Below, piece after piece: positions 1-45,000 of a stretch of DNA of 64,000 nucleotides (its first letter is position 1; each line of letters begins with the position of its first letter). Under the pieces are notes generated by a model, which ran no database searches, was not told the DNA's origin, and worked only from the letters and a program-made list of their open reading frames with translations. The position numbers were made by a program, and so were the translations under genes. Source of the DNA: Meghimatium bilineatum (lineage: Eukaryota > Mollusca > Gastropoda > Stylommatophora > Philomycidae); contig CM067311.1 in NCBI GenBank assembly GCA_034231615.1, positions 24,704,015-24,768,014 of the forward strand, given 5' to 3'.

Positions 1-1
1 C

Positions 2-60
2 AATGAGCTACTGAAAAAAAGAATGAAGCGTGCTAAATCAGTCATTCTTGCAGGATCTAG
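2..60 (+). CDS. NOTUM: NOTUM exon (3' part), ends inside the catalytic Ser codon
   Basis: Reads NELLKKRMKRAKSVILAGS and then the first two bases (AG) of the next codon. It aligns with the family segment that ends LLLAGSSAGG. The exon stops at the donor GTAAGC at 61. The third base of the split codon comes from 3525, giving AGT, the nucleophilic Ser. The exon starts before the window. Bases 34-60 are also the exonic half of the first unit of the 46-bp array that follows. Confidence 0.9.
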
Positions 61-3000
61 GTAAGCTTATATTGTTTGTTAAATCAGTCATTCTTGTAAG
101 ATCTAGGTAAGTTTATATTGTTTGTTAAATCAGTAATTCTTGCAGGATCTAGGTAAGCTTATATTGTTTGTTAAATCAGTCATTCTTGCAGGATCTAGGT
201 AAGTTTATATTGTTTGTTAAATCAGTCATTCTTGCAGGATCTAGGTAAGTTTATATTGTTTGTTAAATCAGTCATTCTTGCAGGATCTAGGTAAGTTTAT
301 ATTGTTTGTTAAATCAGTCATTCTTGTAAGATCTAGGTAAGCATATATTGTTTGTTAAATCAGTCATTCTTGTAAGATCTAGGTAAGTTTATATTGTTTG
401 TTAAATCAGTCATTCTTGTAAGATCTAGGTAAGTTTATATTGTTTGTTAAATCAGTCATTCTTGTAAGATCTAGGTAAACTTATATTGTTTGTTAAATCA
501 GTCATTCTTGTAAGATCTAGGTAAGTTTATATTGTTTGTTAAATCAGTCATTCTTGTAAGATCTAGGTAAGTTTATATTGTTTGTTAAATCAGTCATTCT
601 TGTAAGATCTAGGTAAGTTTATATTGTTTGTTAAATCAGTCATTCTTGTAAGATCTAGGTAAGTTTATATTGTTTGTTAAATCAGTCATTCTTGCAGGAT
701 CTAGGTAAACTTATATTGTTTGTTAAATCAGTCATTCTTGTAAGATCTAGGTAAACTTATATTGTTTGTTAAATCAGTCATTCTTGTAAGATCTAGGTAA
801 GTTTATATTGTTTGTTAAATCAGTCATTCTTGTAAGATCTAGGTAAACTTATATTGTTTGTTAAATCAGTCATTCTTGTAAGATCTAGGTAAGTTTATAT
901 TGTTTGTTAAATCAGTCATTCTTGTAAGATCTAGGTAAGTTTATATTGTTTGTTAAATCAGTCATTCTTGTAAGATCTAGGTAAACTTATATTGTTTGTT
1001 AAATCAGTCATTCTTGCAGGATCTAGGTAAGCTTATATTGTTTGTTAAATCAGTCATTCTTGTAAGATCTAGGTAAACTTATATTGTTTGTTAAATCAGT
1101 CATTCTTGTAAGATCTAGGTAAGTTTATATTGTTTGTTAAATCAGTCATTCTTGTAAGATCTAGGTAAGTTTATATTGTTTGTTAAATCAGTCATTCTTG
1201 TAAGATCTAGGTAAACTTATATTGTTTGTTAAATCAGTCATTCTTGCAGGATCTAGGTAAGCTTATATTGTTTGTTAAATCAGTCATTCTTGCAGGCTCT
1301 AGGTAAGCTTTTATTGTTTGTTAAATCAGTCATTCTTGCAGGATCTAGGTAAGCTTATATTGTTTGTTAAATCAGTCATTCTTGCAGGATCTAGGTAAGC
1401 TTATATTGTTTGTTAAATCAGTCATTCTTGCAGGATCTAGGTAAGTTTATATTGTTTGTTAAATCAGTCATTCTTGCAGGATCTAGGTAAGTTTATATTG
1501 TTTGTTAAATCAGTCATTCTTGTAAGATCTAGGTAAGCTTATATTGTTTGTTAAATCAGTCATTCTTGCAGGCTCTAGGTAAGCTTTTATTGTTTGTTAA
1601 ATCAGTCATTCTTGTAAGATCTAGGTAAGTTTATATTGTTTGTTAAATCAGTCATTCTTGTAAGATCTAGGTAAGCTTATATTGTTTGTTAAATCAGTCA
1701 TTCTTGCAGGCTCTAGGTAAGTTTATATTGTTTGTTAAATCAGTCATTCTTGTAAGATCTAGGTAAGCTTATATTGTTTGTTAAATCAGTCATTCTTGCA
1801 GGATCTAGGTAAGCTTATATTGTTTGTTAAATCAGTCATTCTTGCAAGATCTGGGTAAGCTTATATTGTTTGTTAAATCAGTCATTCTTGCAGGATCTAG
1901 GTAAGCTTATATTGTTTGTTAAATCAGTCATTCTTGCAGGATCTAAGTAAGCTTATATTGTTTGTTAAATCAGTTATTCTTGCAGGATCTAGGTACGCTA
2001 ATATTGTTTGTTAAATCAGTCATTCTTGCAGGATCTAGGTAAGCTTATATTGTTTGTTAAATCAGTCATTCTTGCAGGATCTAAGTAAGCTTATATTGTT
2101 TGTTAAATCAGTTATTCTTGCAGGATCTAGGTAAGCTAATATTGTTTGTTAAATCAGTCATTCTTGCAGGATCTAGGTAAGCTTATATTATTTGTTAAAT
2201 CAGTCATTCTTGCAAGATCTGGGTAAGCTTATATTGTGAATATTCTTCAAACATAAGCCAATATTTATGCCAGTTAACTTCTAGAAGGATCAATATGTAC
2301 TTCATAAAAAAATAACATGTAAATTCTGGATTTTTAAATCAAATTTGGTAAATGTATTACGCTTTACTTGCTGAATATAAATAATAAGTGTTAATATGGG
2401 CACATTCAATGACACCAAAGTGTATTCTGTAAAAGAGGTAAGTCACACGGCAACAACCTGCCATCAGGAATAAAGATAACTCTTCATGTACTAAGCCATA
2501 GCAACTATTAGATGGGGTGGCAAGTTCCCTTCCTTACTGTGTTTACCTTCCCCAACCCATGCATCAGTTACCAATTTACAGCTGGATAAACTGGAGGTCA
2601 TGTAGGATGAGAAATCACAACCCAGAATTTGTGTGTGCAGACGTGATTTCTAAATTGGCACACAAAAAACCTGATGACTGTAAGCAAGCTCACTATGAAT
2701 TAGACTACTCCTCAAATATATACTCCTCAAAAAATGTAGTCAAGCAGAATGGATTTTATGTGTTAACAATATACAGTATGAGAATATACAGTTAAAACAA
2801 GGCTAAAACCTTATGATGGCTTTTGGAAACCATGCTGAACAGGGTTGTTATTGTATCAATAATATTATTGTGTCTCTCAGTCCATGCTATGAAAGGTTGG
2901 TTGCTGATCCAGAGGTCCATGGGCTCATGCCCTTTGGCCCAACTATGAAAGGTCAAAAGCAGATAATTTCACCATTAGCAGGCAACATATTTAGATGCCT

Positions 3001-6000
3001 CTGCCTTTCAGGAATTTCTATGGATCTACTGTCCAAGCCATGTTGAAGTATATGGAAATGAGTGAGCTAACATCCTGGCAACCTATCTTTGATTGACACT
3101 TGGATTAAAGGTGAAATCTTTAAAGGAACGCTGAATTGCCTATAAGAGAATGACATTTTTTACTGGATGAATACCAAAAGGAATTGCAGTAATTAGAATC
3201 AAGCGTGGCGCAAGCAGGGTAGAGATAGGAGTTGAATTAGGAGCATTAAAAATCAGTATGCAATGGGAACAATAAACATAGGCCTACATACACTTCAGTA
3301 TCTGTTGAAAAAGACTGAGCACCTATGGATCTGACGTGAGTGCAATTTAATCAGTTATTCAATTCTTGAATAAAATAAATTGTTTTTTATTTACAAATAT
3401 TGCTGATGTCACTGAGTACTCATTGCACTGTGGGAAATGGTACTCTCTAAATGGTAGGCATATACATTTGTTGATAAATATTTTGATCATAGTTTTAAAT
3501 ATATTTTATTATGTTTTTGTGTAGTGCTGGTGGAACAGGTGTTCTGATCAATTTGGACAGGATAGCAGACTTGATACATGCCAAAGATGCAAAAATACAA
3601 GTGAGAGGGCTGGTTGATTCTGGATGGTTTTTGGATAATGAATCATTCAAGACAAAGCCATGCAGAGATGCATTTACATGTTCACCTATGGCAGGAATAC
3701 AAAAGGGAGCTCAGTAGGCAATTACTGTTGTTGTTGGTGTATTTATATGACCTGTTTTTATTTAGTCCTTTGAAGTTTTTTAGGCAATAGAAGCTAAAAG
3801 GAGGATAAAATAGTTGTCACCAACTGCAGAAATAAACTTTTTATTTGTATTGTAAAGCATATCTGGTTTGAAGTCTCAACAGGCAATCACAGTTGTTAAA
3901 CATTAAATGAAAGCTGGTGGTGAGCAACTTCACTTTGAGCTAGTAACATTAGTGGTAGTAGTTTGACATAATTTCCTACTTATCACTGTTCAACATTGTG
4001 TTTTATCTCTTACTATATGTGAACTAAGCTCACATTTTTACACATTCTCTCTAAGTAACAAAATTAAGAGTGTTTATATTAAGTCTTTGTACAATATTTT
4101 ATTTATTTGTAAACCTACAGTGATGTACTTACATAAAAATGTGCAGAATTGAATGATATTTTTAGAATATGTGTCTGCTGTCTTGTTTTAAGAGCGGAAA
4201 TACATAGTACACTACAAGATAAAACATAGGCCTAACGATTGTAAAAACTTGAAAATAAAATAATAGGTCTAAATTATAAAAAAAATACTTGCAGACTGAG
4301 GCATGTGACTATCATCCAACATTGGCTATTTTGTAAATTAGATCAATTTTTGCAACTATTTGGAAAGTTTCAAATCTTTCTATGCACAAATAAAGTTTCT
4401 GTAATGATGTTAATTAGCTAACATACTTGAGTAAAAGTTAAGCACTGTCTTTGCCACTCAAAGGCCACCCAATAAAACTTACGATTTTTCATTTGTTCCA
4501 GAAATAAAATCACAAAATGGCTGACCATAATCATGAGTCAAGACCTTTAGAATATTGTGATTTAACGAAATACTACTAATTTTTTATGAAGACTTTAGTG
4601 AAGGCTCTCTTCACAATGTCTACCACTGTCTCCGATCGTCCTTCAAAATGATGAGCCGGAATAAGGAAAATATTTATTCGTCTTTAAGAAAGATGGGCAG
4701 TATGCTAAGAGTTTTAAAGTTTAGTTTAGATAGCATATGAACTGATATTAACTGAGCTCAAAGGTCTATGTATAGACATATAGTAATTGTAATTCATCCT
4801 AATGAACAAGTAAAATTGTCCAGCTCTGGTGTAAATAATTATATCTTCTTCAAATAAACTCTAATAAATCAAGGCTTGAAACTTCACCTCTCCCATCAAG
4901 GAGTTATATAACCAAACTCTCTGCCAAGACTAATGTGCACTGAAATAACATTACATAATTATTACAGCACTTTATCCCATTATAGTTTATTTGCTATCAT
5001 TGAGATGTGCACCAATATTTAAAATGTTGGACAACCCTGCCTAATCTATCAAGGTAACTTACTACTTTAAAAGGGAATGCAGAAATTGTAGCTCACAAAA
5101 AAAGGCACAATAACCATATTGGCAACTATGAATGTACAAATATCATTACTATCTGTAATTTTTATCTTAAATAAAAAAATTGGCCTATTTGTTATCACTT
5201 CCCTTCAGTCTGTAGACTCCCATGCATAGTTTATTTAATATCATACAAAAATCATTCACAAGAAGTCTTGGCTGTCATTGACTGTCCATGTTACAAAAGT
5301 TGCAAAGAAAATATAACCAGTAATATTGACTGTCACAGTATCTGATTGTTCATTAAAATATAAATGAAAATCATTATTTATTCATTTTTTTCTTCAAAAT
5401 ACTACATTCACACCTGCAGTAGAGCTGGGTTAGTTTATGCTTCAGATCTCTGAACCGTATAGAATTGTAGTTATGATTTATGATAGCTGATATAGCTATT
5501 CTGCTGAGTATTATAGAATTCTGTTGAGTGTGATAGCATCTTTGATTTCATGCTTTGCCAAACATAATAGTCTTTTTTCTGTTTCGTAGTTTTTCTCAGT
5601 TGATTTGTTGCGCTAAATTGAGTTCAGGTGTCTCAATGTTTGTCATTTTGAATAGCATAGAATGTATTCATAAGGATAGATTTTTTTCTTGAAGATTTTT
5701 AGTTTCTTTTCATATCTATTTAATCTATCTTTTCTTGTAAATTGTGTTTGAACATGAAAAATGTGTGTAGCTGCTCTGAAATTGTGAACACCTTTAACTG
5801 AAATATTTCTTTGTGTATGCACTTATGTAGGGGCAGGGCAGAGTAAGATGGAGTTGGGAAACATAATAAATATTTCATGTAATCATTATTTACCATAAAA
5901 ATACAAGAGAAAAGATATTACCAGTAAATTATGAAAATGTAGGCCCCTATAGCAAACATAACATAAACTATGGATACGTGGGATAGAAATCTACATCGCC

Positions 6001-9000
6001 AAGGAATTACAATGTAAGCTAAACAAAATTTGATAGTGGAGAACTAATTCAGGTTCATCAGTTAACCATTTGAACCCTGGATAATTTCATCTTAATAGCC
6101 CCTTCTCCTGGGCACTTGAGCAAAAAAATACACAAAAACAACACTCAAACAGATCTTAGTAAATTTTATAAAGAGTTTAGACAGTGAAAATTATACATTT
6201 ACCATTTCTTTCATCATGATCATTCTGTTTTGTTTCTAATCTTCTTCAGTTGCATGAGGAACACATGACATAAAATACCTAAGATCTGTTGGGTTTTTTT
6301 TTTTTATGTAGGCCTAATTTTTGAACCCACTGATAAACCAACATTAAATCAGATTGATTAACAAGAACTGTCGTAATTTATAGACCTACTTACAAACAAT
6401 ATTCGCTCATTCTCAAGGGATCTATCTTAGTCTATTTCCATATAATTTTCCAAATAGTCATCATCTAAATCTAATTGATCTTTCTCTAAATCCTCAAACA
6501 CAACAATTTGTTCAGCTGTTTTTGGACACAAAAATATTCTGTTTTTCCACACGTCATTTTGATTTAAAATACAAACTCTACTGTCAAAACTTGTACATCA
6601 TTTTGTGAAGCAGTTATCCCACAGTGCAATGAGTACATCATGACATCAGTAAAATGTGTAAATTGATTTATTAATAATAATAATTAACGTGAGGTACTGT
6701 TTTGTGAAGTCGAAATATCAGTATCTCTGGGCAGCTATATTTTGTGTAAATGGCGTAATTTCAGGATATCTGGTTGTAAGGTTAATTCAGCTAAAACAGA
6801 GATGGGCAATATTTTATGCTTGATGGGCTGACTAAACATTTTTTTTGAGGAATGTGGCCAACAACTTTTTTTTTTTTTTAAAGTTTCAGTTAATATTTCC
6901 TGAGCTCTGGAGCCAGTACATATAGCAATTTTGAATTAACTGCACAGACTAATACAAATGGCTTGGTGTGTCAGATTTGGACCATATTTTGAATTAACTT
7001 GACAGACTATTACAAATGGTGTGTCACATTTGGGCCATATTTTAAATTAGCTGGACAGACTAATACAAATGTCATGGTGTGTCAGATTTTGGCCATGTTT
7101 ACTTACCTCTTAATAAAAAGCATCCAAAACTTGGTCCTCATCAAACTTATCCTACACTATCCCTAACCTGTAATAATTCTATATGTTACAGAGTATGGGA
7201 GCCTCGACTTCCAAAATCGTGTACAGCACAGTATCCCAAAGAAGTCTGGAGATGTTTTTTTGGTCATAGAGTGTATTCTTCAATAAAAAGTAGGTTGGTA
7301 ATGTCTGAAGGATCCTGTGTGTTTTTTGATAAGTGCATAACCTTATATTTTTATATTTTATTCTTCTCTAACATGACCTGAAAGTACAACAAAAAAGAGC
7401 AGCACTGTGATCTTTCATCCATGTTGTATGAATGACTATATGTATACAGGTATGGGGGTGGAGTTTGTCACTCCATCTCTTTTGGTGTCAAAGTAACCCA
7501 AGACCATTGCTGAAGGTGGATTTGTCAGGGTCAAAGTTGCAAATATTGCAACCAAGCTGTAAACAATGGCACATTGCATTCCATTCTCTGGACTACATAC
7601 TGCTTGCTAGCAAGAGTTTGAGAATAAATGCTAAAGAGAGTAAATTACATTCTCGCTTGTGTTGGTCATGTTTCTCATTGTCATAAAGTGACAGAACAGC
7701 GGGACTGAATGGAGTTGATTCATTGTTATAGATTGCTCATCAACCCTAATACTTATTTCTTGATTCAGGGATAATTTATTGCCGATTAAGAAATCTAGAT
7801 ATGTAAAGTTGTCAACAAACTCGAATTCATTACCACTGATGACATTTTGTCACAACTTGATGGCAGTCTGCATTATAATTTGTGTCATATTTTGCTGATT
7901 GTTTGTCCAACTCAAGTCAGGCATCAGAAAACACAGCTAGTAGGTTTTGCAGTTTTTCCTCTGAGTGTGTCATAATTGCAGCATCATCTGCAAAAAACAA
8001 CTCTCTTCACTTCCTTATATTCTGGTTTTGGCTTTCAACCTTTGAGCATTGTAGAGACCACCATCTGTACAAGAATTGATGAATGTACTATATTCCTTGT
8101 TGTGAAAAGTGTTTTAAGATGAGAGTTATGTGAACTTTTTTAAAGATATTTCAAAAAGTGGGGGTGGAGGCCAAGAATAAGTCTTGTTTTATGCTATTCT
8201 TGATCACAAACTTCTCTGAAAAAACACCATCAAAGTTGCTAGTGGCTTTCATAAAAAAAATTTTTTTGTACTGTGAAGGAGTGCAGGGAGGTTTTCTATG
8301 GGCTATGGCAATAATGGCTGCTTTGCCATAGCATACACTGTGACATGTACAGGAAGGATTTTGATTACCTCTTTCTTATCTGTGAAAGATAAAAGTCCTG
8401 TCCCAACCATGGATTGAACCCGGGACCTCAAATGTCTGAAAACAGTGTTCTAACCACATGGCCATGCCCTCCACATGGCTTTCATGCTTGTATGAAATGA
8501 CTCAACCATACTTAGGAGGATTGGTGGAAGCTAATTTTCTGGCGCACTTTGATCAATGCTCCACAATTTACTAAGTGAAATGCCTTTATAATATAAATTA
8601 AAGCAACATACATGGGCTGGTTTTAGTCATGGTGTTTCTGTTGTAACTGATGTAATGAAAATATATAAGAGATGCTCAGTAAAAAGGTAATACTGCTGAA
8701 AACTATGAAAATAGATTTACATAGAACACAGGTAATGTAGTCTTACTGGACGTTGACTAACACATTATCATTGTCGGATGCTAACATGAAAGAGTACACA
8801 TAACAGTACACAGGACATAATCATACAAATAACATAATCATAGAAATCTCCTGTGTATTGTTATATATATGATTGTGTCCTGTGCACTGTTGTGTGTATT
8901 CTTTCATGTTTGCATCTGACAGTGATAGTGTGTTAGTCATCATTCAGTAAGACTACACTACCTTGTTATATGTAAGTACTGTTTAAAGAGGGACTAGGGA

Positions 9001-12000
9001 TTATTGCTTGAAGCTATGGACTTATGTGCTATAAGTGGTACTTTGAACAGGTGGTGCAGAACTTTGTTGAGAGGGATGAAATACATGTGATAACCCGAGT
9101 ACAATGAAGTAAATCCTCTCTGCCTTTTCAACCTTTCATATGAATGAAATGATTAGGCCCTATGTATTATATTTTTCAAATGTCCTATCCCCTCACAATT
9201 GCATCACCTCCCTCATCATCATTAAGTGCCGTCTCTGCAACGAAGGTTGGCTGCAACGTATTTCCACCACCTCCTGTCTCTTGTCTTGGTGGTGCACTCT
9301 GCTAGACTGTAACCTGTCCATTGTGTGATGTTACTCTCCCACGTGTATCTCTGCCTACCTCTTGCTCGCTTCCCTTTGACGTTACCCTCAAGTAAGGTCT
9401 TCAATAAGGTGTCATGTCTTTTAATGTGTCAAAAATATTTTATTTGCCTGATCTATCATCTCCTTAGAGTCTTGTTATACACTCAAAATATGGATTTACA
9501 AGTTACTTTTACAGAATACTACACCTATATTTGATCTTGACCTTTAGTAATTAATTGTACTGCTGTAGACTGCATTACTGCTGATAGACCTACCGGTATG
9601 TAGAAACATCATTAGTAATAAATAGGGGATCTTTTGGCAAGCAATGATGTATGTATTGGTAGGTAATGATATATTTAAGAATATCACCACTTGTGCTAAT
9701 TAATGACATCTGTGGTGAGAAATCTGTGTTCAGGAAATATGTTACTGGTGGTAAAAAATTTAGAATTGTCCAGTAAAATCAAAAATCAAATAATTTCAAT
9801 GAAATAATACATCAAATGATTAAAATCTCAGTAATGAAAAAACATGAGTCTTACGTCCTCAGCGCCCATCTATATTGTTCAGAACCTTTACGATGCAGCT
9901 CAGATCAAGGTAAATAATGTCTTTGAAGATGTCATACAAACTCAATTAACCTCTGAGCAGTGGAGATATTTACTGACACTCGGTGAAGAGGTCAAGAAAA
10001 CTTTGCAGAATGCATCGTAAGTTGAAAATTTTTCTATATCTAAGCCTTATGTACTTAGAACCATATTGAGATAGGGATTTTTGATATCTTCGTTCAAGGT
10101 TTTACATAAGACTGTTGAGTGTCACACGGATAGCTAAGAAGCAAAATGAGTAGGTGCTACATAGAGCTATTAAATGCTGAATCCTTCTAAGATGTGTCAG
10201 AAAAAATTCAGTCAATATTTTTGGACATATTATGAGAGGTATTATAGAGAACATTGTTCTCTCCAGGCCAGATAAATGGAACATACTGTATGAAACAAGC
10301 AACAGCTCACAAACATATGCATATATCATACAATAGAATTGGCTTAAGGGGCATGAATGACAGCTGGAACAGCAACCAGAAAGCATTATTTAAGCATGTA
10401 AATATCACAAAAAGAGAAGCAGAGGGAGACAAGATACAATTTTGTAGCAAGCCTGGTGAAATGGCATGGTGGAGACTCAACAATAGAGCTGACAACGAAC
10501 ACTAGTAATGGGAAACCTATTGAGGGAGATCCATGATCCCTTTTACTACTGGTATCGTACTTACAGGTGATGCTGATAAATCTTAATAAAAATAGCTGTT
10601 TAACTCTTTGTCTCTGAGTCTTCCTAGCCTGTTGTAATGTACTTAGAACTATAAAAATTGAGGTATTAGGTTCTTTTAGTTTAAAACCACATATTTAGGA
10701 AGGTAATGCACTAAACCTTTGTGGTATTGCTGCTGCTATCAGCAGTAGTAAGTCACACCAATAACAGTAATTTAACTCTTAGTGAACCAGGGTGACAACC
10801 AGCATGTAGAGAAAAACAACAAATAGGTTGTTGTTTGATCCACTGTGAGTTAATATTTGACTGAAGTGCTCAAGAGAGAATAGATTATCCGTCATGAATC
10901 TCTCAATGGAAAGGCAACTGAGTAAACACCCAAAATACTGAATGATTTAAAATTGATCCAATGATTGATTCTCAGTAAATACCTTGTATACAACAATTTG
11001 GAAAACAGAATAAAACCATGACACTCTCCTGGGTGACGGATGTGCACTCATCCTTACTAAACTGAAAGTCTCAAACTTTTTACATGTCCACTGCTGGATA
11101 ATTTCAGATAAATACTTAGAGGTGGGCCATCCATGGAAAAAAATGGTAACAAGATGACATGAACTTCAAAAATGAACTTGATTTTATGTATGGTCATATG
11201 CTATGATATAACCATAATAGACCCAGGTTAAACATTTGAAAGTGGTGTGTTTATTATAGGGGGGTCTAGGGGCATGGGTTAAACAGTTGAAAGTGGTGTG
11301 TTTATTATAGGGGGGTCTAGGGGCATGGGTTAAACATTTGAAAGTGGTGTGTTTATTATAGGGGGGTCTAGGGACATGGGTTAAACATTTGATAGTGATG
11401 TGTTTATTATAGGGGGGTCTAGGGACATGGGTTAAACAGTTGAAAGTGGTGTGTTTATTATAGGGGGGTCTAGGGGCATGGGTTAAACAGTTGAAAGGAA
11501 TGTTCTTTACTATAAAGTGCTTCTATATTTCATTTTTTTAATAGTACATGAACAATATTTTGAAATATTATTTCTTTTTGTCAGCGCTGTCTTTGCTCCA
11601 GCTTGTGTTTCCCATGAAATCCTTACTAAACCGTAAGTTCATCAAAAGTAACATTTGTACTATATATTTATAAATTACTCTGTATTACTGTTCTGACTTA
11701 GGCAGCTCATGATGTTAATATATATATATATACAAATTGAATATTCTTATCACTTCTTGATTCGTCGTTTTTGCTGTCCATTGTACTCTCAAAATTCTTC
11801 TCAGGCATCTCATATCAAAGGCAACTGTTCTCTTTGCCACTGCTTTATTAAGTGTCCATCACTTATGTGGATACTGGGGCTTGGACTTCTAGTTCAGGGT
11901 GCAAAAAAAATATGGCCACCATATTCTTTTCAAGTAGGAGGTGACTAAGGAAACTTGGGGGATAAGCTGACAACCCTATCCCTATCTAACTTGTATAAAA

Positions 12001-15000
12001 TAAGAGTGGGTAATATACAGCCAATGAGCTAAATGTGCTCTGCTAGACTATATTTCACTGGTCCAGGTATCTTGAAAATTGTTGCATAAAAAACTATTGT
12101 TTATGTAAACCTTTGTCAATCCTCCCTCCCCTTGTCAAACTTTTCCATACACCCCCAACTGTTGACAGGATTTATGGATAACCCCTAATTTGATAGTGGC
12201 CCAACATAAAATAATGTTGCCAACTTCTACTTTACATGAATATGTATCATTTTATTGGATATTAACTGTTACTGCTAATAAAACACAATGCCAATCCTGG
12301 ATTATGCCAGAAAACAGATCAGATGAAGTGGTTTTCACATGCTTCCAGATTACCATCAATCAGATAGTGGCCCTCAAAAAGGTATTGTTATACAGACACA
12401 ATGACTACAAAGCCAGAGATAGATCATGCAAAAGATGGATTGATATATTAATCCTATTACATTAATCCTGGATTAATACTATTACAGAAATAAAAGTTGA
12501 TGAAAACAAACATATATGAAGCAGACACACAAAAAAACATTTTCATAGAACTCTTCAACTCCTGATGTTGCCAGGCATAAAGGGGTATAAGCAAATAAAG
12601 AAAAAGAAACAATGATTAGATATTATTATTGGGCTCAACTCACAAGTACAATTTGTTCACATTTGTTCATGGATCAAAATCCTACTGTCATAATTATACT
12701 GGTGATGCTATTGGATGTTCTATTTGTGTTTAAAGTTTCAATAATAGTTGAAAGGCAATGTTCTATAATGGATTTTTTTCAATTATCATTATATCTTATA
12801 TAGTTATATTACTTCTCCTTCTCCCTTGACAGTTCCTTACGAAAAAGTGTTTTTGTTAGTTAATTTTTTTTTTACTTCTAAAACTATTTTGCAAGGAACT
12901 CTCAAGGGTGGAAGGAGTAAAAGCAGACAAATCCTGGATTAACAGCATCATGGAATGTTCTGGGCATAATTTTTCTACACTTGTCCAAATGGTTGAAGTG
13001 TTTGGAGGCCTTTTTGTACGAATGTTTCCTATGTATAAATTTAAAAAAATCACACTGTACATGACGTGGCAACAGCAAGAGCATGTGGCCTTTATCACAC
13101 AGCTACAAATAGCTTACTAGCTCCCTGCGACTCCTTAATGGGAAAACATGCAGTAATTGCCTATTTTCTTTTTGACAGTCTCGAATATGGCACCTCTACG
13201 ACCCTGATGGGTTATGTGTCTTATTACTATTACAAGTATTAGGCCTATTCTTATTCTTATATCAAACATCTTCTCTATTGTCTGATATTACATTTACTAT
13301 AAAATCTGTTTATTCCTGCATGCTACTCTGCAGGAGTTTAAGAACACACATAGGCCTACAAAAAGAAGATACATGTATATTTATTTATTTTTCATTATTT
13401 ATCTTTTCATTTGTTTTATTTTATTTTCAAGCGTTTCTTCTTTAACTCCTGTTAGATCTCTCTTGCAGCAGGATAAAGATCCTACTATACTCTGTTCATT
13501 TTAAGAGTGAAGTAGGTCAGTGTTTCTGATTGGTTGTTTGACGCCGAACGCATAAAACAAATGTTAAGTGTGCAATGATGTAACTATATTATGTATAGTT
13601 CAAAGAATTGATATAAGCCTATGTCACAAGATTTATTTGCACCAATAAACTGACGCATTCAACTTTGGTAGAAGTGTATTTGTAATGTAGAAGGCATTTG
13701 TGCTTGTACATTGCAGTCACTATGAGTGTGCATTGTAACTAGTGGTCAGTTATCAAATAATACAGATATGGAATAATAAAGGGAGAAGAGAATGTGGATG
13801 GTGAAAAACTTTAAAAAACAGTCAATGAAAAAGTTATTTTCTTGTAGCAATAAAACAATTGGTTGGTCATCCATATTTGTGTATTTTTACTTACAGTGAG
13901 TGGCACACAGTACGAATTGAGGGGACATCTCTACCTGAGTCAATATACTGCTGGGAATCTAATCGAAGTCTGACTTCTTTATGTCGTCAGTCAAGGTATT
14001 ATTTCATATTTCTTCTTTCAGTCTTTAGGTTGTTTAACCTTTAGCATACTATGTTTACAATTATGTAACTTCTATCCTGTCGCTGACTGCCCGTGGAATT
14101 AGTTTTTGAAAATTTTACTCATTTATTGGTGGCTGTTTTGAAATCGCGATAACTTTTTTGTTGTTACAGATATTTAAATATCAGGTACCATGCTGTCTGG
14201 CATAGCTGGTCATGGCTCTCCACAGCTCTCTGTTCACAGTATTATGTATCAAGATTGTTGTTGCTTCTCTGCCATGCCAGGTTGTCAAACTAATATTTTC
14301 TCACATTGCAATGTCTTGTACAATATATGCTTCAATGATTTACTGTACTGTTAACATGAGATTTAAGTATCAATATTATATTACTACCACACTGACAACA
14401 TCAGATGTAATTTCCAAATATCACACTGACCAAATGAAGTGTAATTACAAAATATCACACTGACCAGAGGAGATATCGTTACGAAATATTGCTCTGACCA
14501 AATGAAATGTAATTATGAAATGTCGCACTGATCAGATGAAATGTAATATCAAATATCGCACTAGTGAGATATGTAATTACCACAGAAATGAACAAAGTTA
14601 AATATTTAAATTCATGGAGAAATGTCTAGTACAAAAACATTGGGAGCGTATTAGTGACAAGACTCTCAGTTCATGCTTAGAAAGATAATCAAATTGATGC
14701 CACATAAATGTGTGGGTGGAGTAAATTGCACATTGTAATCTGCATTGAATTCTGTGAATATATTGTCTGGACACACTAGAGTCTTCTGCATAGAAAAAAG
14801 AGCAATTTATTACCTTTGAAAGTGCCAATACTAGAGAAAATAGGGATAAACAATTACATTAAAATTACAACATGAATACTTATTAATGAGAATACACTAC
14901 TAGAAGGAGATGTGATATTGTGACTCAAGAGTACGAAATTACCCAGTGTGTAAATATAACAGGGTGAGCGAGGGGATATTTGACTGTGTGTGTGGTGTAA

Positions 15001-18000
15001 TGCTGTTCTACAGGAACCATTCTGTTATGACATACATACTTAGTCACTCCAAACCAATCAGTTATGAGACTTCATTGTACAATTTGTTTTTCAGTATTAC
15101 CTCCAAGTCCAAAAAAGATGCTCCTTTGTCTGATTCTCCACCACACAGTCAGAACCACAAGAAAAGAAAAAAAGGCAAATGGAAAGGCAAGAGCAAGAAA
15201 AAGAATAATAAAAATACTCATAGTAAGACATTTTATTTTATCCGTTACTCATTTATTGCTATGTAATATTATAAATATAAATATCCTAAAGTAGGTGATG
15301 TACAAGATCAGATGCAGAATTTAAAAACAAACAAAAAACTATATTTTATTTTCTAGCTTGATTAATTATGTAGGACTGCTGGTTGTAATTATTATGTTAA
15401 TAAATAAGCTTAATTGTACAGCATAATTGTACAGAATAGATACAATGCCATTGCAAAGATTATTGTTTAAGATTATTATACTGAGCATTGAAGATCAAAG
15501 GGATATGCTAAATCATTCGATAAACCAAACATCTAAAGAGATAATACCAAAAGTAAAATATACAGAAAACAAAAATGGATGACAGAAGATATTAGAATTG
15601 ATGAACGCCAGAAAAAAACACTTTCGTTACTGCATGTTTTCCTGTGAAGGAGTGCACAGAGATTTTCTATTTGCTGTGAAGATAAAGGCTGCTTTTCCAT
15701 AGCAGATGCTGTGACATGTACAGGAAGGATTTTGATTGTACCTACACAAAAAAAAATCCTGTCCCAATCATAGATTGAACATGGAACCTCCCTCAGGGGT
15801 CTGAGAACATCATTCTAAACACATGGCCATGCTCTCTACAATGAAGTTAGAATGAATTGAAATAATAATTATTATTAACACAAAGATTTTATGTAAAATA
15901 AACTATATGTTTTACTGAATACTTTGCTGACTAAATTCAACAATCCTTTAAATTTCATGTTTATATACTCTTAGTGATATATTATAAAATATATTAGGTA
16001 ATATGTTCTTGTCATTAGAGGTGAGAGAGCTCTGCAGTGCTATATAACTCGTATACTAACATATGGATGCGAGTCTTGGACAATAAACAAACTGGAAAGT
16101 AGAAAATTAGAGACAATATTAGAAAATATTAGACAGTTTGACAACCTGGCATGGCAAGGAAACAAAAATGATCTTGATACATAATCCTGGAGATAACGAG
16201 CTTTGGAGAACCATGATCACTTACGCCAGCTGGCATTGCACCTAATAATGATGATGCTGAAAGATAAATGAGTGAAATTTATGCTGTAGTAGTAGCACTT
16301 TCAACTATTCGGACAGAGCCAATAAAAAGTCACGTTAACCCAAAGCATTTATTAATACTGTAGGGGGCATTAATTGGTGCACATGATAGGTGCATAGAAA
16401 CAAAAGTCTTTGTTATTTGTTATTTTTTACTAACATTATTTTACATATGGTAATTTTGCTATTTATTAGTGTTGTGTTACTGCAACACACAGCACTTTGT
16501 TGAGTAACTTTAGTTATTATCTATGTTAAAGCATTAATTACTTGATGTTAAATGTGATATATGTGGTGTGTATGGCCAAAGAGCTAACATGGCAGACTCA
16601 AAACTCTGAGGTCCTGGGTTCGAGCCATAGTTGGGATTGAAGTTGCAAAAAAAATCCTTCTTCCTGTGCATTGGTGACTGCTATTGAAGAGTAGCGTTTA
16701 TTTCCACTTTCTGTAAAAGTCACCTTGCACTCCTTAACCCTATAGCTGCTGCATTATTTTCACTAACTGATCTCAGTTGTGCTAAATTCTTTTGTCCAAT
16801 GACTTCATCCTGTGCTGATTCCTTTTCTTGTCTTACAAAAATAAGAACTTTCATGGCACTGGCTTTTTACTGACATCAGAAAATAAATACCGCATGGATG
16901 GTATGTTTCAAGAGCACTGGCACATTGCGATTTCAGATTGTAATAATTGTTAGTAATGAGGGGGTCAGTCAGTTCCTCTTTTGCCAAGTTTGACACATAA
17001 GTCTGATGTCATATTTTTCCATGCCTGTCAGTCAGTTGCTGAGGATTGCAGGTCTTGTGCATTTATGCTTGTTGATTTTAATTCATTCATAAATGTTCTT
17101 CTGAATGTTGTTTTTGGTGTTCCCTGTTTTCTTTTCCCATCTGGTGTCCACATGAGGGGGGAGACACCACAAAAAATAACTAATTCATCTTTAGCAGCCA
17201 GAGAGAGAGGGGAACTAGTAAATTCACGTGTAACAGCTACAGGGGTTAACAGGAAAATAAAGCAGTAAAACAAGATATGTGGAAACTGGTTCTCACATAT
17301 TTATATTTTATGACTTGCATTTCAAAAGTTATGTATAGCTAAAATTATGATGGTAAACATTGTGTTCTTTAACTAATTAATTTATTTTATATCAGAAAGT
17401 TCTGCAGAAGATGGATGTGTTGGGCCATTGGTGCAAATAAAACGGCGACACAACGCATTTCCATTCTCTGGACTGCATCCTGCTGGAGATCTAGTAGTAC
17501 TGCTACAGCAGAGATCCAGCAGGAGTTTGAGAATGAATGCTGAAGAAGAAGAAGAAGATATCAGAAAGTTATATTTTTAATGACATGTATATGCTCATCA
17601 TCATCATCAAGTGCCGTCTCCGCAACGAAGGTTGGCTGCAACATATCTCCAACATCTCCTGTCTCTTGTCTTGGTGGTGCACTCTGCTAGACTGTAACCT
17701 GTCCATCGTGTAATGTTACTCTCCCACTTGTATCTCTGCCTACCTCTTGCTCGCTTCCCTTTGACTTTACCCTCAAGTAAGGTCTTCAATAGGGTGTCAT
17801 GTCTTTTAATGTGTCCAAAGTATTTTATTTGCCTGATCTTTATTTCTCTTAGTAGTTCTTTCTTCATATTAAGTGTCTTTAGTGCCTCTTTATTTTGTAT
17901 ATGCTACTTTCACTATATTTGCCATTATTTGTGCTAGTTACATACATTTCTTTTTCTAAGTCACTAGTAGTCATCTTCAAATTACTACTGGTTAGCAAGA

Positions 18001-20133
18001 TGTCATATAGAGTAGGCAATTGTTACATCATGGTTTCAAGTTTGGCTATTATCAATAAGTGCATCACTCAGAATGACATTGTCTGTAATACTAGCATCAC
18101 TCAGAATGACATTGTCTGTAATACTTGCATCACTCAGAATGACATTGTCTGTATTAGTTGCATAACTCAGAATGACATTGTCTGTATTAGTGTCATAACT
18201 CAGAATGACATTGTAATACTTGCATCACTCAGAATGACATTGTCTGTAATACTTGCATCACTCAGAATGACATTGTCTGTAATACTAGCATCACTCAGAA
18301 TGACATTGTCTGTAATACTTGCATCACTCAGAATGACATTGTCTGTATTAGTTGCATAACTCAGAATGACATTGTCTGTATTAGTGTCATAACTCAGAAT
18401 GACATTGTAATACTTGCATCACTCAGAATGACATTGTCTGTAATACTTGCATCACTCAGAATGACATTGTCTGTAATACTTGCATCACTCAGAATGACAT
18501 TGTCTGTAATACTTGCATCACTCAGAATGACATTGTCTGTATTAGTTGCATAACTCAGAATGACATTGCCTGTAATACTAGCATCACTCAAAATGACATT
18601 GTCTTCAATAACTGCATCACTGAAAATGACATTGTCTGTATTAGTTGCATAACTCAGAATGACATTGTCTTTAATACTTGTGCCTCTCAGAATGATATTG
18701 GCTGTAATACCTATGCCCTTTGAGAGTTACATTATCTATAATACTTGTATCACTCAGGATGACATTGTCTTTAATACTTATGCCCTTTCAGAATGACATT
18801 GTGACTTCAGCATTGTGCTTTTTTCGCAAACATTTGCTCTTTCTACAATATGGAGTAGGAAATAACATGCCCAGTCCTTCTTAGCTACCTTTGCATAAAT
18901 ACATACATAATACATCACAGTGTAAATATTCGTTGTTCCAGTATTAATCCTTAGTAACAAGAAAGTTACAAATAATTCAAGGAAAAACGAATATTTTTTT
19001 GAGCTTGTACATTTTTATATATAGGATATAATGACTTTCCAAATTAAATAAATGATTCCCAGATGTTATTGAACCAAGATTTAAACTTCACAATTCCTTA
19101 ATCATCGGATTATATGACTAATGTCTTGCAAGACCATTATTCTCTTCCTCTATTGCTTCCCTTACATTATTTTCAAGATGTCTATTTGTGTGTAAATTCT
19201 ACATTTCTAATATTTTACTGTTTACTTTTCTAGACTAGCATTGCTTTTGTGCATCATCTTTAACAAGTTTTAACAATATTGTCTAACTTGTTTGTCTGTA
19301 GTTCTATGATTTACATTCAGGTCAATAACAGTTTTGTTTAACTTGTTTGTCTGTAGTTCTATGACATTCAGGTCTATAACAGTTTTGTTTAACTTGTTTG
19401 TCTGTAGTTTTATGACATTCAGGTCAATAACAGTTTTGTTTAACTTGTTTGTCTGTAGTTCTATGACATTCAGGTCTATAACAGTTTTGTTTAACTTGTT
19501 TGTCTGTAGTTTTATGACATTCAGGTCAATAACAGTTTTGTTTAACTTGTTTGTCTGTAGTTCTATGACATTCAGGTCTATAACAGTTTCAGCTATAAGA
19601 ATGATATTTCTTCACAAGACTTTACAAATATTTTATTACTCATTTAAAAAAATTATATTTAAAAATTGAGTAATCAGGATACCAGTTAAACTGAGTACTG
19701 TATGATAAGAAAATATTGAAAAAGAAATATTGAAAAAGGGTTAAATAGCAGTTTCACATTGAACAATACACAGGATCAACATTTTGACCAAAGTTCTATA
19801 TCAAGAAAGGACAAACACATGTGTTTGAGTAGAAACACACCTTTTGATAGAATTGTCGTTTGCGCAGATTATATTCAGAAAGATTATATTTAAAATGGTT
19901 GCAAACAAGTGTTTTCTGTTGTAGGAAGAAACAACAGAAATTCCAGATCTGTGTCGAAACGCTGTCAACATAAACTGATGGATGGATGTCCTTGGCCTCA
20001 TTGTAATTGTTCCTGTCCTAAATGTCGCTGGGAGACTATGGCACGAGTAAATCAGTATTTCCTTCAGACATTGGCAGCAGTGATGGGTATTGATCCAGGG
20101 AAGATGTCTAATGTTCACTTATGTGGTTATTGA
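2..20133 (+). CDS. NOTUM: NOTUM-like carboxylesterase gene, C-terminal eight exons (gene span)
   Basis: Exons are 2-60 (5' part outside the window), 3525-3713, 7192-7289, 9863-10016, 11585-11632, 13897-13995, 15095-15222 and 19925-20133. Phases match at every junction and the join gives 984 nt, 327 residues plus TGA. All introns are GT-AG. NOTUM is a secreted alpha/beta hydrolase that removes palmitoleate from Wnt proteins and so turns Wnt signalling off. Family landmarks seen: the nucleophile motif GSSAGGTGV, then RGLVDSGWFLDN, CFFGHRVY, the Asp in NLYDAAQ (9892-9894), the His in CVSHEI (11613-11615), EGTSLP and GCPWPHCNCSCP. The whole catalytic triad is therefore present. The signal peptide and N-terminal third lie upstream of the window. 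A lysine-rich stretch near the C-terminus is longer than I recall for vertebrate NOTUM. The naming is by eye but rests on many conserved blocks in order. Confidence 0.93.
34..2237 (+). repeat. 46-bp minisatellite, 48 units, each carrying an exon end plus splice donor
   Basis: The period is exactly 46 bp with no indel: unit starts run 34, 80, 126 and so on to 2196, giving 47 full units and a 42-bp last one. Each unit is a copy of exon bases 34-60 followed by the first 19 intron bases, so each carries TCTAG joined to GTAAG. 23 units read TTGTAAGATC and the others mostly TTGCAGGATC. The TTGTAAG type fills most of 310-1229, and the TTGCAGG type dominates both flanks. Any donor after the first would put TAA in frame right after the Ser/Arg codon, so only unit 1 makes full NOTUM by simple splicing. 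Confidence 0.97.
2238..3524 (+). other. rest of NOTUM intron; one dispersed-repeat piece
   Basis: AT-rich intron without a recognisable exon until the acceptor TTTTTGTGTAG at 3514-3524. Bases about 2880-2945 (GGTTGGTTGCTGATCC and following) match, in reverse complement, the sequence near 49225-49280, so this is a dispersed repeat. The small open frames at 2517-3046 have no family resemblance and no coding support. Confidence 0.6.
3525..3713 (+). CDS. NOTUM: NOTUM exon with oxyanion/nucleophile region
   Basis: Starts with the T that completes the catalytic Ser codon, then reads AGGTGVLINLDRIADL, a spacer, and VRGLVDSGWFLDN, all NOTUM signatures. It ends in phase 2 (CA) at a weak-looking donor GTAGGC at 3714. 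Taking that donor gives a clean in-frame join (CAA, Gln) to the next exon, which is why it was preferred. Confidence 0.93.
3714..6914 (+). other. NOTUM intron, mostly unique AT-rich DNA
   Basis: About 3.2 kb with no exon, RNA gene or clear mobile element that I can recognise. Homopolymer runs of T occur near 6295 and 6865. TAGGCCTA palindromes occur at about 4229 and 6311. Confidence 0.5.
6915..7095 (+). repeat. degenerate ~60-bp repeat, 3 units
   Basis: Three imperfect copies of a unit containing TTGAATTAACT, CAGACTAATACAAATG and GTGTGTCAGATTTGG. The array ends about 95 bp before the acceptor of the next NOTUM exon. Confidence 0.8.
7192..7289 (+). CDS. NOTUM: NOTUM exon
   Basis: Acceptor TATGTTACAG at 7182-7191. 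It reads VWEPRLPKSCTAQYP, EVWRCFFGHRVYSSIK, matching the family block that in human reads CFFGYKVYPTLR. It ends in phase 1 at donor GTAGGT (7290). The split codon A|CG joins to the next exon as Thr. Confidence 0.9.
7430..7650 (+). mobile_element. degenerate SINE, GAA-tail superfamily
   Basis: Shares GGTCAAAGT, GCATTCCATTCTCTGGACTA and GAGTTTGAGAATAAATGC with the younger copies at 17402-17557 and 49433-49594 and with the inverted copy at 27640-27850. The tail is worn and no target duplication is evident, so it is an old copy. Confidence 0.65.
7700..8060 (-). mobile_element. LINE reverse-transcriptase fragment
   Basis: The minus strand contains LFFADDAAIMTHSEEKLQ, the catalytic FADD box of a non-LTR reverse transcriptase, in a short broken frame. 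Only part of the palm region remains. Confidence 0.7.
8270..8485 (-). mobile_element. tRNA-derived SINE
   Basis: On the minus strand it begins with a tRNA-like head (A-box-like ATGGCCATGTGGTTAGAA and B-box-like GGGTTCAATCC) and continues through a body ending in AAGGAGTGC-type sequence (reverse complement). Similar copies lie at 15640-15845 (-), 16565-16745 (+) and 29340-29450 (-). Confidence 0.75.
8716..8976. repeat. foldback element: ~110-bp inverted arms
   Basis: The left arm (about 8716-8826) and the reverse complement of the right arm (about 8869-8976) share TGTAGTCTTACTG, GACTAACACA, AACATGAAAGA and CAGGACA with an estimated identity above 80%. The ~42-bp centre is AT-rich. The arms could fold into a long hairpin in RNA or DNA. 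It looks like a foldback MITE. Target duplications were not identified. Confidence 0.8.
9205..9470 (-). mobile_element. RTE-clade LINE 3' end, 5'-truncated
   Basis: The minus strand encodes LLEGNVKGKRARGRQRY, WTGYSLAECTTKTRDRRWW, the typical C-terminus of RTE/BovB-like reverse transcriptases, and ends in a (GAT)-like tail at about 9215. It is a close relative of 17590-17880. Confidence 0.85.
9471..9862 (+). other. NOTUM intron end, nothing recognised
   Basis: AT-rich intron sequence up to the acceptor CGTCCTCAG at 9854-9862. I see no feature in it. Confidence 0.5.
9863..10016 (+). CDS. NOTUM: NOTUM exon with the catalytic Asp
   Basis: Reads (T)PIYIVQNLYDAAQIKVNNV and on to EEVKKTLQNA(S). 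The Asp at 9892-9894 corresponds to the acid of the NOTUM triad (human segment VVQWLFDEAQL). The acceptor at 9861-9862 was chosen over an AG at 9881-9882 because it restores PIYIVQ and the phase. Donor GTAAGT at 10017. Confidence 0.92.
10110..10560 (+). mobile_element. worn LINE C-terminal fragment (probable)
   Basis: Pieces such as FGHIMRG-like (GGACATATTATGAGAGG), RGMNDSWNSNQ and GGAGACTCAACAATAGAGC resemble the tail of RTE-type reverse transcriptases in broken frames. No intact end is visible, so the call is tentative. Confidence 0.4.
11226..11497 (+). repeat. 51-bp minisatellite, 5.3 units
   Basis: Unit starts at 11226, 11277, 11328, 11379, 11430 and 11481 (exact 51-bp spacing). Each unit carries GTTAAACA, GTGGTGTGTTTATTATA and a run of six G. 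It ends 88 bp before a NOTUM acceptor. Confidence 0.95.
11585..11632 (+). CDS. NOTUM: NOTUM 48-bp exon with the catalytic His
   Basis: Reads (S)AVFAPACVSHEILTK(P), matching human SFAPACLSHEII. The His codon is 11613-11615. Acceptor TTTTTGTCAG ends at 11584, and donor GTAAGT is at 11633. It is too short for simple open-frame finding but is strongly conserved. Confidence 0.92.
11633..13896 (+). other. NOTUM intron with SINE and LINE scraps
   Basis: About 11870-11990 resembles the 5' part of the dispersed SINE seen near 44990 and 57335 (TCTAGTTCAGGG and AGGAGGTGACTAAGGAA). About 12340-12480 has LINE-tail-like RDRSCKRWIDI. About 13312-13340 has a SINE-tail scrap (CTGCAGGAGTTTAAGAAC). The remainder is AT-rich and unassigned. 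Confidence 0.45.
13897..13995 (+). CDS. NOTUM: NOTUM exon
   Basis: Acceptor TTTACTTACAG ends at 13896. It reads (P)EWHTVRIEGTSLPESIYCW and on to LCRQS, matching the family EGTSLP/HCW block. It ends in phase 2 at GTATTA (13996). Confidence 0.92.
14170..14590. repeat. RTE tail scrap followed by degenerate ~38-bp array
   Basis: 14180-14305 matches the 3' end of an RTE subfamily (minus strand: CTGTCTGGCATAGCTGGTCA and following; compare 46785-46960). 14390-14585 holds about five degenerate units with ATCACACTGACCA and ATGAAATGTAATTA. Confidence 0.65.
15095..15222 (+). CDS. NOTUM: NOTUM exon with lysine-rich insertion
   Basis: Acceptor TTTGTTTTTCAG ends at 15094. It encodes ITSKSKKDAPLSDSPPHSQN and then a strongly basic run with KKRKKGKWKGKSKKKNNK. 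The exon lies between the CW block and the CPWPHC block, where human NOTUM has only a short basic linker. NOTUM is known to associate with glypican heparan sulphate, so a basic surface loop is plausible; that role here is inference. Ends in phase 1 at GTAAGA (15223). Confidence 0.85.
15223..15639 (+). other. intron, nothing recognised
   Basis: AT-rich. A weak LINE-like scrap (CAAAAATGGATGACAGAAGA) occurs near 15570. Confidence 0.4.
15640..15845 (-). mobile_element. tRNA-derived SINE
   Basis: Same family and orientation as 8270-8485: GTGAAGGAGTGCA, GATTTTCTAT, GCTGTGACATGTACAGGAAG and the minus-strand tRNA-like head near 15775-15835. Confidence 0.75.
16020..16260 (+). mobile_element. RTE-clade LINE 3' fragment with internal deletion
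   Basis: Begins with the YGCESWTINKLES-type segment (ATATGGATGCGAGTCTTGGA) and jumps to the terminal part ending GCCAGCTGGCATTGCACC and a GATGATG-like tail. The middle of the usual C-terminus is missing. Confidence 0.8.
16565..16745 (+). mobile_element. tRNA-derived SINE
   Basis: Plus-strand copy of the family at 8270-8485. The head contains GGCCAAAGAGCTAACATGG and the B-box-like GGGTTCGAGCC; the tail ends near CACCTTGCACTCCTTAA. Confidence 0.75.
16960..17175 (-). mobile_element. LINE C-terminal fragment (WTPxGKRK type)
   Basis: The minus strand reads MWTPDGKRKQGTPKTTFRRT, the terminal motif of a common LINE group (usually WTPEGKRKRGRPK). A plus-strand relative is at 44222-44460. Confidence 0.8.
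17389..17570 (+). mobile_element. GAA-tailed SINE with 13-bp target duplication
   Basis: The body 17402-17557 is flanked by identical 13-mers ATATCAGAAAGTT at 17389-17401 and 17558-17570. It ends in (GAA)n after GAGAATGAATGCT. It is related to 49433-49594 (+) and 59335-59489 (-), both also with target duplications. It has no recognised protein. Confidence 0.92.
17590..17880 (-). mobile_element. RTE-clade LINE 3' end
   Basis: The minus strand encodes IRQIKYFGHIKRHDTLLKTL, EGKVKGKRARGRQRYKW and ECTTKTRDRRCW, ending with an (ATG)/(GAT) tail at 17590-17608. It is closely similar to 9205-9470, and a worn relative lies at 63540-63860. Confidence 0.88.
18046..18800 (+). repeat. 33-bp minisatellite, ~22 units
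   Basis: Unit of GCATCACTCAGAATGACATT plus GTCTGTAATACTT, spacing 33 bp (18061, 18094, 18127 and on), with two 27-bp variants lacking GTCTGT and a divergent 3' end. Because 33 is divisible by three it stays open in several frames on both strands; these frames are not genes. Confidence 0.95.
19267..19588 (+). repeat. 51-bp minisatellite, ~6 units
   Basis: Unit of TTTGTTTAACTTGTTTGTCT, GTAGTTCTATGACATTCAGG and TCAATAACAG, spacing 51 bp. Alternating TCAATA/TCTATA suggests a 102-bp higher-order unit. Confidence 0.93.
19925..20133 (+). CDS. NOTUM: NOTUM last coding exon
   Basis: Acceptor TTTTCTGTTGTAG ends at 19924. It reads RNNRNSRSVSKRCQHKLMDG, CPWPHCNCSCPKCRWE and on to a terminal HLCGY and TGA at 20131-20133. 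The CPWPHC block and cysteine pattern are diagnostic for NOTUM. Confidence 0.93.
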
Positions 20134-42000: not shown

Positions 42001-45000
42001 GCCCCAAAAACATTATATTTGACACAGACATATAATATCTGGACTTATAAAGGGCTCCATATCTCAAATAGCTTAGGGCGTTATCAAGTCTAAATACGGC
42101 ACTGATATAGAGTATCGTATAGAGTAGCATATAGAGTAGCATATAGAGTATTATATAGAGTAGCATATAGAGTAGCATATAGAGTATTATATAGAGTAGC
42201 ATATAGAGCAGCATATATAGTATTATATAGAGTAGCATATAGAGTATTATATAGAGTATTATATAGAGTATTATATAGAGTAGTATATAGAGTATTATAT
42301 AGAGCAGCATATAGAGTAGCATATAGAGTAGCATATAGAGCAGCATATATAGTATTATATAGAGTAGCATATAGAGTATTATATAGAGTATTATATAGAG
42401 TATTATATAGAGTATTATATAGAGTATTATATAGAGTATTATATAGAGTAGCATATAGAGTATTATATAGAGTATTATATAGAGTATTATATAGAGTATT
42501 ATATAGAGTATTATATAGAGTATTATATAGAGTATTATATAGAGTATTATATAATTATATAGAGCAGCATATAGAGTATTATATAGAGTATTATATAGAG
42601 TATTATATAAAGCAGCATATAGAGTAGCATATAGAGTATTATATAGAGTAGCATATAGAGCAGCATATATAGTATTATATAGAGTAGCATATAGAGTATT
42701 ATATAGAGTATTATATAGAGTATTATATAGAGTATTATATAGAGTATTATATAGAGTATTATATAGAGTATTATATAGAGTATTATATAGAGCAGCATAT
42801 AGAGTATTATATAGTGTATTATATAGAGTATTATATAGAGTATTATATAGAGTATTATATAGAGTATTATATAGAGTATTATATAGAGCAGCATATATAG
42901 TAGCATATAGAGTATTATATAGAGTAGCATATAGAGTAGCATATAGAGTATTATATAGAGTAGCATATAGAGTAACATATAGAGTATTATATAGAGTAGC
43001 ATATAGAGTAGCATATATAGCATATCGAGTAGCATATAGAGTATTATATAGAGTAGAATATAGAGTATTATATAGAGTAGCATATAGAGTAGCATATAGA
43101 TTATTATATAAAGCAGCATATAGAGTAGCATATAGAGTAGTATATAGAGTAGCATGTAGAGCAGCATATAGAGTAGCATATAGAGTAGTATATAGAGCAG
43201 CATATAATTATATAGAGTAGCATATAGAGTATTATATAGAGTAGCATATAGAGTATTATATAGAGCAGCATATAGAGTAGCATATAGAGTAGTATATAGA
43301 GCAGCATATAATTATATAGAGTAGCATATAGAGTAGCATATAGAGTAGCATATAGAGTATTATATAGAGTAGCATATAGAGCAGCATATAGATTATTATA
43401 TAGAGTAGCATATAGAGCAGCATATAGAGTATTATATAGAGTAGCATATAGAGTATTATATAGAGCAGCATATAGAGTATTATATAGAGTAGCATATAGA
43501 GTATTATATAGAGTAGCATATAGAGTATTATATAGAGTATTCTTGATTTTGCCACTTTGGATATCCTGTTCATGTATTTAACCAATAGCAGTGCTGATAG
43601 TACACATGCCTGTCTCACTCCCGTTGTTGTTTCGAATGGATCTGAGAGTCCTTCGTTTGTTCTTATTGGATTATATTACAAACTTCGTTAGTTATTATAT
43701 AGTGCTCGTGTGTTGTTTAATAGTTATCCGTGTATTCCGTGATCTTCTAGTATCTGCCACACTTTGTCACTGTCAACTCTGTCAACTCTGTCAACACTGT
43801 CAACTCTGTCAAAGTCCTTCTCTTGATCTACACAGGTGATGTTTAGCTGTTGTTCATATTCAGTTGCAGTTTGCGCTTAATTGTCTCAGTACAAAGATGG
43901 CGTCTGTACACCCTACCTCTTTTCTGATGCCAAAACTGGGTCTTGCTTAGTTGAGTCTCTATTATTGATCTAAGTCGTTGTTATTTTTGCATATCTTTCC
44001 TGCGTGGCTAGGTAGATATATTCCTCTGTATGCTTCACACTCTTTTGTTGCCTTTATTTTTCAATATTGGGATGATAATTGCTTTCTTCCTGTCATCAGG
44101 TTCTTGTTTTTTTGACCATGCTATATTGAATATTCTTTTTGAGCCATCTTATTTCCGACGTTCATATGTTTCAAACGTCATAAAAAACGCAGATGAAAAT
44201 TCCTGGGTCACGTTTTAAGACTAGATGAAAATAGAATAAACCAACAAGCCCTTATGTGGACACCTGAGGGTGAAAGAAAACGAGGAAGACCTAAAGCATC
44301 CCTAGAAAAAACCATTTATAAAGAAGGGGAAATAATAGGCTGCAAGACCATACAAGGGCTAAAACGGGAGGCAGTGGACCACAACACACGGAGAATCACA
44401 ACCTCTGCCCTATGTGTAACTTGCGGCACGAAAGGAACAAACAAACGAACTCCAGTTTGATTACATGCATGGATTGCTTCAGTTCTTATGCCATCAAAAT
44501 TTGGTTATTTTTTTGCTTGCGCTGTTTTTACGTATTTTTCGTTTTCTTTTTCAAGTATTCCTGGTTCCCGAGTTCCTGTATGCTTTTTGATGTATGGTGG
44601 CCTTTTGTTATTGTTTGGTGGGTTATATAGATCTTGGAAATATTCTAGTCATTTTACTGAAAATACCTGACCGAAGTAATACCTGACATTTTCAGGGCTG
44701 AATACATCAAAGGAGAGAGTAGAGATCACCCCAATATCTGCTATCTATGTCAATACGACACGGGGAAAAGCTCCAACCATTCCAGAGGACACAATTTGTC
44801 AACAGTGGTTTCTTTGACAGCTGCGCTAGGTCTGCAGACGTTTATTAAATTCGCTCATGACTGTGTGGGAATGGTAAGAATTTTAGCTATATTAACACTC
44901 ACATATTCTCCTTGTTAGTAGGAGTAAGGAGGAGATACCCTTGTGTTGCCGGGCCCCTAAAGTGTGGGAGCAAAGATTAGCATAGCAACAAATTTAACTT

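Follow-up and report, generated by a model that had tools for sequence, protein, structure and literature searches.

The window analysed here, a stretch of 64,000 nt, opens within exon 5 of a NOTUM gene and carries the exons that follow, and a long tandem array lies across the end of exon 5 and the start of intron 5. The features are listed below, with a slash marking splice junctions here and throughout.

1..60, plus strand: 3' part of NOTUM exon 5, encoding NELLKKRMKRAKSVILAGS and then the AG of a split serine codon.
34..79, plus strand: unit 1 of the array, with exonic bases 34-60 (27 nt), intronic bases 61-79 (19 nt) and the donor at 61.
61..3524, plus strand: NOTUM intron 5, 3464 nt, containing the array; acceptor ..TTTTTGTGTAG/TGCTGG.
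62..64, plus strand: in-frame TAA (translation ..LAGSR, then stop), present in any transcript from donors beyond 61.
3525..3713, plus strand: NOTUM exon 6, starting T GCT GGT GGA and encoding AGGTG; donor CA/GTAGGC.
7192..7289, plus strand: NOTUM exon 7, VWEPRLPKSC..; ends inferred from the sequence and the NOTUM alignment.
9863..20094, plus strand: NOTUM exons 8-11, in order; ends approximate.

Exon 5 is 106 nt long in total, its own 3' splice site lying 45 nt before the window start, and the intron upstream of it measures 1635 nt. The NOTUM identity given in a preliminary description of this DNA was borne out, as the spliced exons 5-7 match solved NOTUM chains with an E value of 7.9e-32 and the spliced peptide matches the Pfam PAE family at 1.3e-27. 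Furthermore, a human NOTUM probe gave 11 ordered plus-strand matches over 37.5 kb, running from probe residue 21 to 385; one further match was weak (E 7.7) and was taken as chance. The tblastn matches for exons 8-11 fall at 9853-10011, 11580-11630, 13883-13972 and 19930-20094. A nucleophile motif of the GxSxG type is present as AGSSAGGTG across the exon 5/6 splice, where the junction splits a serine codon (AG/T). This is the second serine of GSSAGG, which we take to be the catalytic serine of NOTUM. Judged from its sequence, the gene around the array looks intact.

The array unit had been read as 27 bases of exon end plus 19 bases of intron, repeated about 48 times with no change of period, and both TRF and the unit table agree with this. 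TRF places the array at 34..2237 on the plus strand, with a period of 46 bp, 47.9 copies, 95% matches and 0% indels, which makes it the longest of the 62 merged arrays in 124 kb around the gene; the unit table holds 47 full 46-bp units, among which 13 sites vary, and a unit 48 whose final bases have diverged. The same description gave every unit a GTAAG donor with AG directly before it, which is correct only in part: GT stands at the donor position in all 48 units and AG/GT in 44, whereas GTAAG occurs in 40 and the complete AG/GTAAG in 36. The commoner donor 9-mers are TAGGTAAGT (19 of the 48 units), TAGGTAAGC (17) and TAGGTAAAC (7), and the rarer ones are TGGGTAAGC and TAAGTAAGC (2 each) and TAGGTACGC (1). 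The exonic part is of the GCAGGA type in 23 units, of the GTAAGA type in another 23 and intermediate in two; read in the frame of unit 1, it gives KSVILAGS and KSVILVRS 23 times each and KSVILARS twice, a mixture which implies that the protein sequence is not kept in the later copies. The mean distance between units reaches its minimum at a lag of three units (1.77, versus 2.44 for all pairs), a sign of block-wise turnover.

Donor strength was scored with a weight matrix. By this matrix, 36 of the 48 array units, within 2.2 kb, score at least as high as unit 1, versus 0.11 such GT sites per kb in the gene span minus the array; the donor density of the array is not chance. Those that exceed unit 1 belong to 19 units, all with GTAAGT. 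Concealment of the donors by RNA structure was considered and dropped, as the fold of five units (34-263) was weak (z -1.86, with 8 of 200 shuffles equally good). An Rfam search of the window gave 0 matches.

All these donors face one acceptor at 3525, an anatomy that had been correctly described. The statement that the frame is kept from the first donor only proved stronger than claimed: donor 61 is the sole in-frame donor for NOTUM, and the TAA at 62-64 means that any of the 47 other donors would give a truncated product. Truncated NOTUM transcripts should be targets of nonsense-mediated decay, since several exon junctions follow the stop.

In the genome (1.61 Gb in 32 contigs), PF03283 matches also occur on C14 and C22, in six additional places or clusters; the exon matches total 14, one of them in the window. 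The closest paralog, at C22:12.16 Mb (80% across 64 aa, 73% across 33 aa), has its intron at the identical position, with one donor, CCAG/GTAAGC, and no array there, and the intron is of similar length (about 3.6 kb) to the array-bearing one. In two C14 copies the intron lies, by our reading, 2 nt further downstream and has a donor without an array. Because the paralogs possess the intron without the array, the array arose after the intron and is dispensable to the family; for the same reason, the C22:12.16 Mb paralog led us to reject a gain of the intron by tandem duplication of AGGT. Positions +21 to +36 of the intron of this paralog are identical to unit bases 1-16 at 12 of 16 positions, a post hoc comparison in which the background matched equally well at 16 of 9781 positions and at 13 of 19980; the similarity suggests that a chance seed may have permitted the first duplication. 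Among the other NOTUM-family exons, 4 of 14 have an array at most 30 bp away, made of AT-rich 19-24 bp units or of a 2-copy repeat, and none of these four has an array that spans a coding end. At C14:48.55, 48.59 and 48.65 Mb, NOTUM-like copies stand in a row, with a 19-bp TATAGTGATGTAGATAT-type array of varying copy number that ends just before an exon acceptor.

Tandem arrays are common around the gene, where the 62 merged arrays occupy 17.4% of the 124 kb and 17% of the gene span, and a single overlap at a donor is therefore unsurprising. Exon bases inside arrays amount to 27 of 1178 (several exon ends being approximate), all of them in unit 1, and one of the 11 exons has an end inside an array. 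Selection probably keeps arrays out of exons and tolerates the overlap of NOTUM unit 1.

The genome-wide tendency of donors to form arrays was measured as the share of 9-mer occurrences that open a run of three with gaps of 15-45. The donor words CAGGTAAGT (895 of 11503, 7.8%) and CAGGTGAGT (967 of 9237, 10.5%) fall inside the range of the four control words, that is, TGAATGGAC (423 of 13443, 3.1%), TGACAGTGA (3047 of 29295, 10.4%), TGAGTGGAC (903 of 7715, 11.7%) and AGTGACAGT (2488 of 20122, 12.4%), and these two donor words thus have no consistent tandem preference over the four controls. The tandem share of CAGGTAAGT is 2.5 times that of its reversed counterpart, and triples of AGGTAAG occur 11703 times versus 9630 for the reversed word, counts of overlapping pattern matches which, inside a single array, are not independent (the 100 CAGGTAAGT matches listed correspond to about 19 places); some tandem excess at real donors is possible. 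A genome-wide class of donor-selected arrays was nevertheless dropped, as CAGGTGAGT is not above control once single occurrences are counted and as the tandem shares of AGTGACAGT and of its reverse are just as high. The idea that such arrays are exons was likewise abandoned: among nine distinct arrays from 30 loci at the start of contig C1, a coding exon, an Sp/KLF-like one, was evident at the first donor of one.

This exon carries a second donor-spanning array.

C1:6715883-6716097, minus strand: 52-bp array, 6.1 copies, covering the donor end of a zinc-finger exon.

The exon ends ..KRFARSDELTRHKRTHTG/GTAAG; five copies have ACACACAG/GTAAGA and the last copy is changed. The next finger is opened by an acceptor lying 1040 nt further downstream. 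The exon matches Pfam zf-C2H2, its PDB matches include WT1, EGR1 and KLF chains, and we read it as probably Sp/KLF-like. As in NOTUM, the original donor lies upstream of its copies.

Elsewhere in the window, 121 copies of a 12-bp unit (ATATAGAGTATT) form an array at 42105-43541 that can be read as long repetitive frames on both strands; a 1305-aa open frame on the plus strand (50083-54000) appears by eye to encode a complete protein of a LINE-type retrotransposon, reverse transcriptase included, and a 110-aa open frame on the minus strand (54112-54444) may be similar to the C-terminal region of ribosomal protein S3A. Outside the window, C2:121989805-121990428 is a nuclear copy of mitochondrial DNA, with the COX1 start, an ND2-like frame before it and five TGA in the standard reading, and the first 4 kb of contig C32 are not recognisably mitochondrial.

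The preliminary description knew of no gene with such an array. Comparable cases have in fact been published from amphioxus, in Adh3, globin, TnC and PGBD5, under the name of mirages, i.e., tandem repeats that span exon-intron boundaries, and regular splicing is reported, from RT-PCR, to be undisturbed by them (PMC3087553, PMC3902484). The NOTUM array resembles them (Adh3, the globins BflGb6 and BflGb9, TnC, PGBD5) in being a boundary minisatellite with many AG/GT units in an otherwise working gene: its unit spans the exon-intron boundary and its units hold AG/GT signals. It differs in copy number, with a 46-bp unit present some 48 times at the donor versus 6 and 3 units in the BflGb6 haplotypes and an imperfect 3 x 108 bp in PGBD5, and in its host, which is probably not a lancelet; the published mirages known to us come from cephalochordates (PMC3087553, PMC3902484). 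We class the NOTUM array as a probable mirage, unusual in its 48 copies, in its position at the probable catalytic serine codon and in its probably non-lancelet host. Two human systems are also comparable. The UBC array is likewise a tandem with AGGT in each unit (here 44 of 48); the UBC units encode protein and keep the frame, whereas the NOTUM unit, at 46 bp, is not a multiple of 3 and unit 1 alone codes (PMC10809524). Genes of segmental duplications also have minisatellites at exon-intron boundaries, with units of about 30 bp and 4 repeats on average, and these are tied to alternative or novel introns, whereas the NOTUM intron predates its array (PMC2812944). A literature search for repeated splice donors, or for NOTUM with a minisatellite, returned nothing.

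We consider it likely that the array is a roughly neutral mirage minisatellite and that the upstream donor at 61 wins. The use of donor 61, the neutrality, the mode of growth and the seed are all parts that we infer. The minisatellite would have originated across the boundary between exon 5 and intron 5, its seed probably being a chance similarity of the exon end (TAAATCAGTCATTC) to intron sequence about 46 bp downstream, and either unequal exchange or slippage may then have expanded it to about 48 copies. As the copies extend into the intron, donor 61 would remain the nearest to the 3' splice site of exon 5; under exon definition it should beat the downstream copies, which would depart with the intron, and ordinary tandem-repeat turnover may keep and homogenise the array. 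Exon 5 has 106 nt and its flanking introns have 1635 and 3464 nt, lengths that suit exon definition, so that donor 61 should win. In exon-defined minigenes carrying two identical 5' splice sites at a distance of 52 nt, only the upstream one was used in all strong-site constructs; for intron definition, the paper states the opposite, intron-centric proximity rule (PMC9225289). The regular splicing reported for amphioxus mirages agrees with a silent array (PMC3087553, PMC3902484). The base rates favour a neutral minisatellite over the donor sponge, the slowed or recursive splicing or the tuning by nonsense transcripts that had been proposed, since 17% of the 124 kb is tandem repeat, the two donor words do not consistently exceed the controls in tandem share and the closest paralog has a single donor.

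Against neutrality stand the opposite rule for intron definition, the possible tandem excess at real donors and the 36 of 48 donors that are at least as strong as unit 1 by the weight matrix. These 36 also speak for dosage control, according to which some transcripts would use downstream donors, retain the TAA at 62-64 and decay, so that array length tunes NOTUM. Every downstream donor leads to this TAA, and intron definition would prefer the donor nearest 3525 (PMC9225289). We nevertheless regard dosage control as unlikely, as the exon and intron lengths fit exon definition, the paralog handles the same intron without an array and arrays are ubiquitous in the genome. A dense binding of U1 at the start of the intron could instead guard against premature 3'-end formation, a protection of transcripts by U1 that is known as telescripting. 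The 48 GT donor positions in 2.2 kb would suit this role, which is extremely improbable given that the paralog intron of about 3.6 kb lacks the array. It is very unlikely that the array is an artefact with inflated or collapsed copy number: long perfect-period arrays are generally error-prone in assembly and the copy number comes from a single assembly, but the many distinct unit variants are in non-random order, the period is constant over 48 units, similar arrays are common in the assembly and the C1:6.716 Mb case is an independent, shorter one.

Dual-specific or recursive splicing, in which AG/GTAAG serves as both 3' and 5' site and the array is removed in multiples of 46 nt, is in our judgement rather improbable; the same degree of doubt applies to the idea that a hop from 61 to any AG/ rebuilds the exon end and the donor, so that errors heal themselves. 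Dual-specific AGGT sites have been described in human, including UBC (PMC10809524). The 44 units with AG/GT would supply such sites, and the pyrimidine content before the unit CAG/, 0.62, is within that of the likely real acceptors of the gene (0.56-0.88); before TAG/ it is 0.56-0.62 in 8 units. However, the CAGG units have a CAG 7 nt before TAG that should compete, its use lengthening the product by the 7 nt GATCTAG and putting it out of frame, and the best hop would be a very short intron of 46 nt. Hopping or a 7-nt microexon is possible on sequence grounds, the tract of the unit CAG/ being no worse than that of several likely acceptors. A self-correcting donor ladder, in which a splice from 61 to a unit AG/, or a second splice after use of a distal donor, restores the junction and array length sets the ratio of productive to nonsense NOTUM, we likewise hold to be quite doubtful. 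If true, its uncorrected products would carry the TAA and the array would be a copy-number rheostat on a Wnt antagonist; the principle would also explain why genomes tolerate mirages.

Whichever of these readings applies, the locus is a natural test of donor choice, with about 48 near-identical 5' splice sites in steps of 46 nt, one acceptor and the first site alone productive. If donor 61 is exclusive, as expected for a neutral mirage, cross-exon proximity suffices against 2.2 kb of competitors; if it is not, the array meters a Wnt antagonist. The array also suggests that mirages occur wherever minisatellites are dense.
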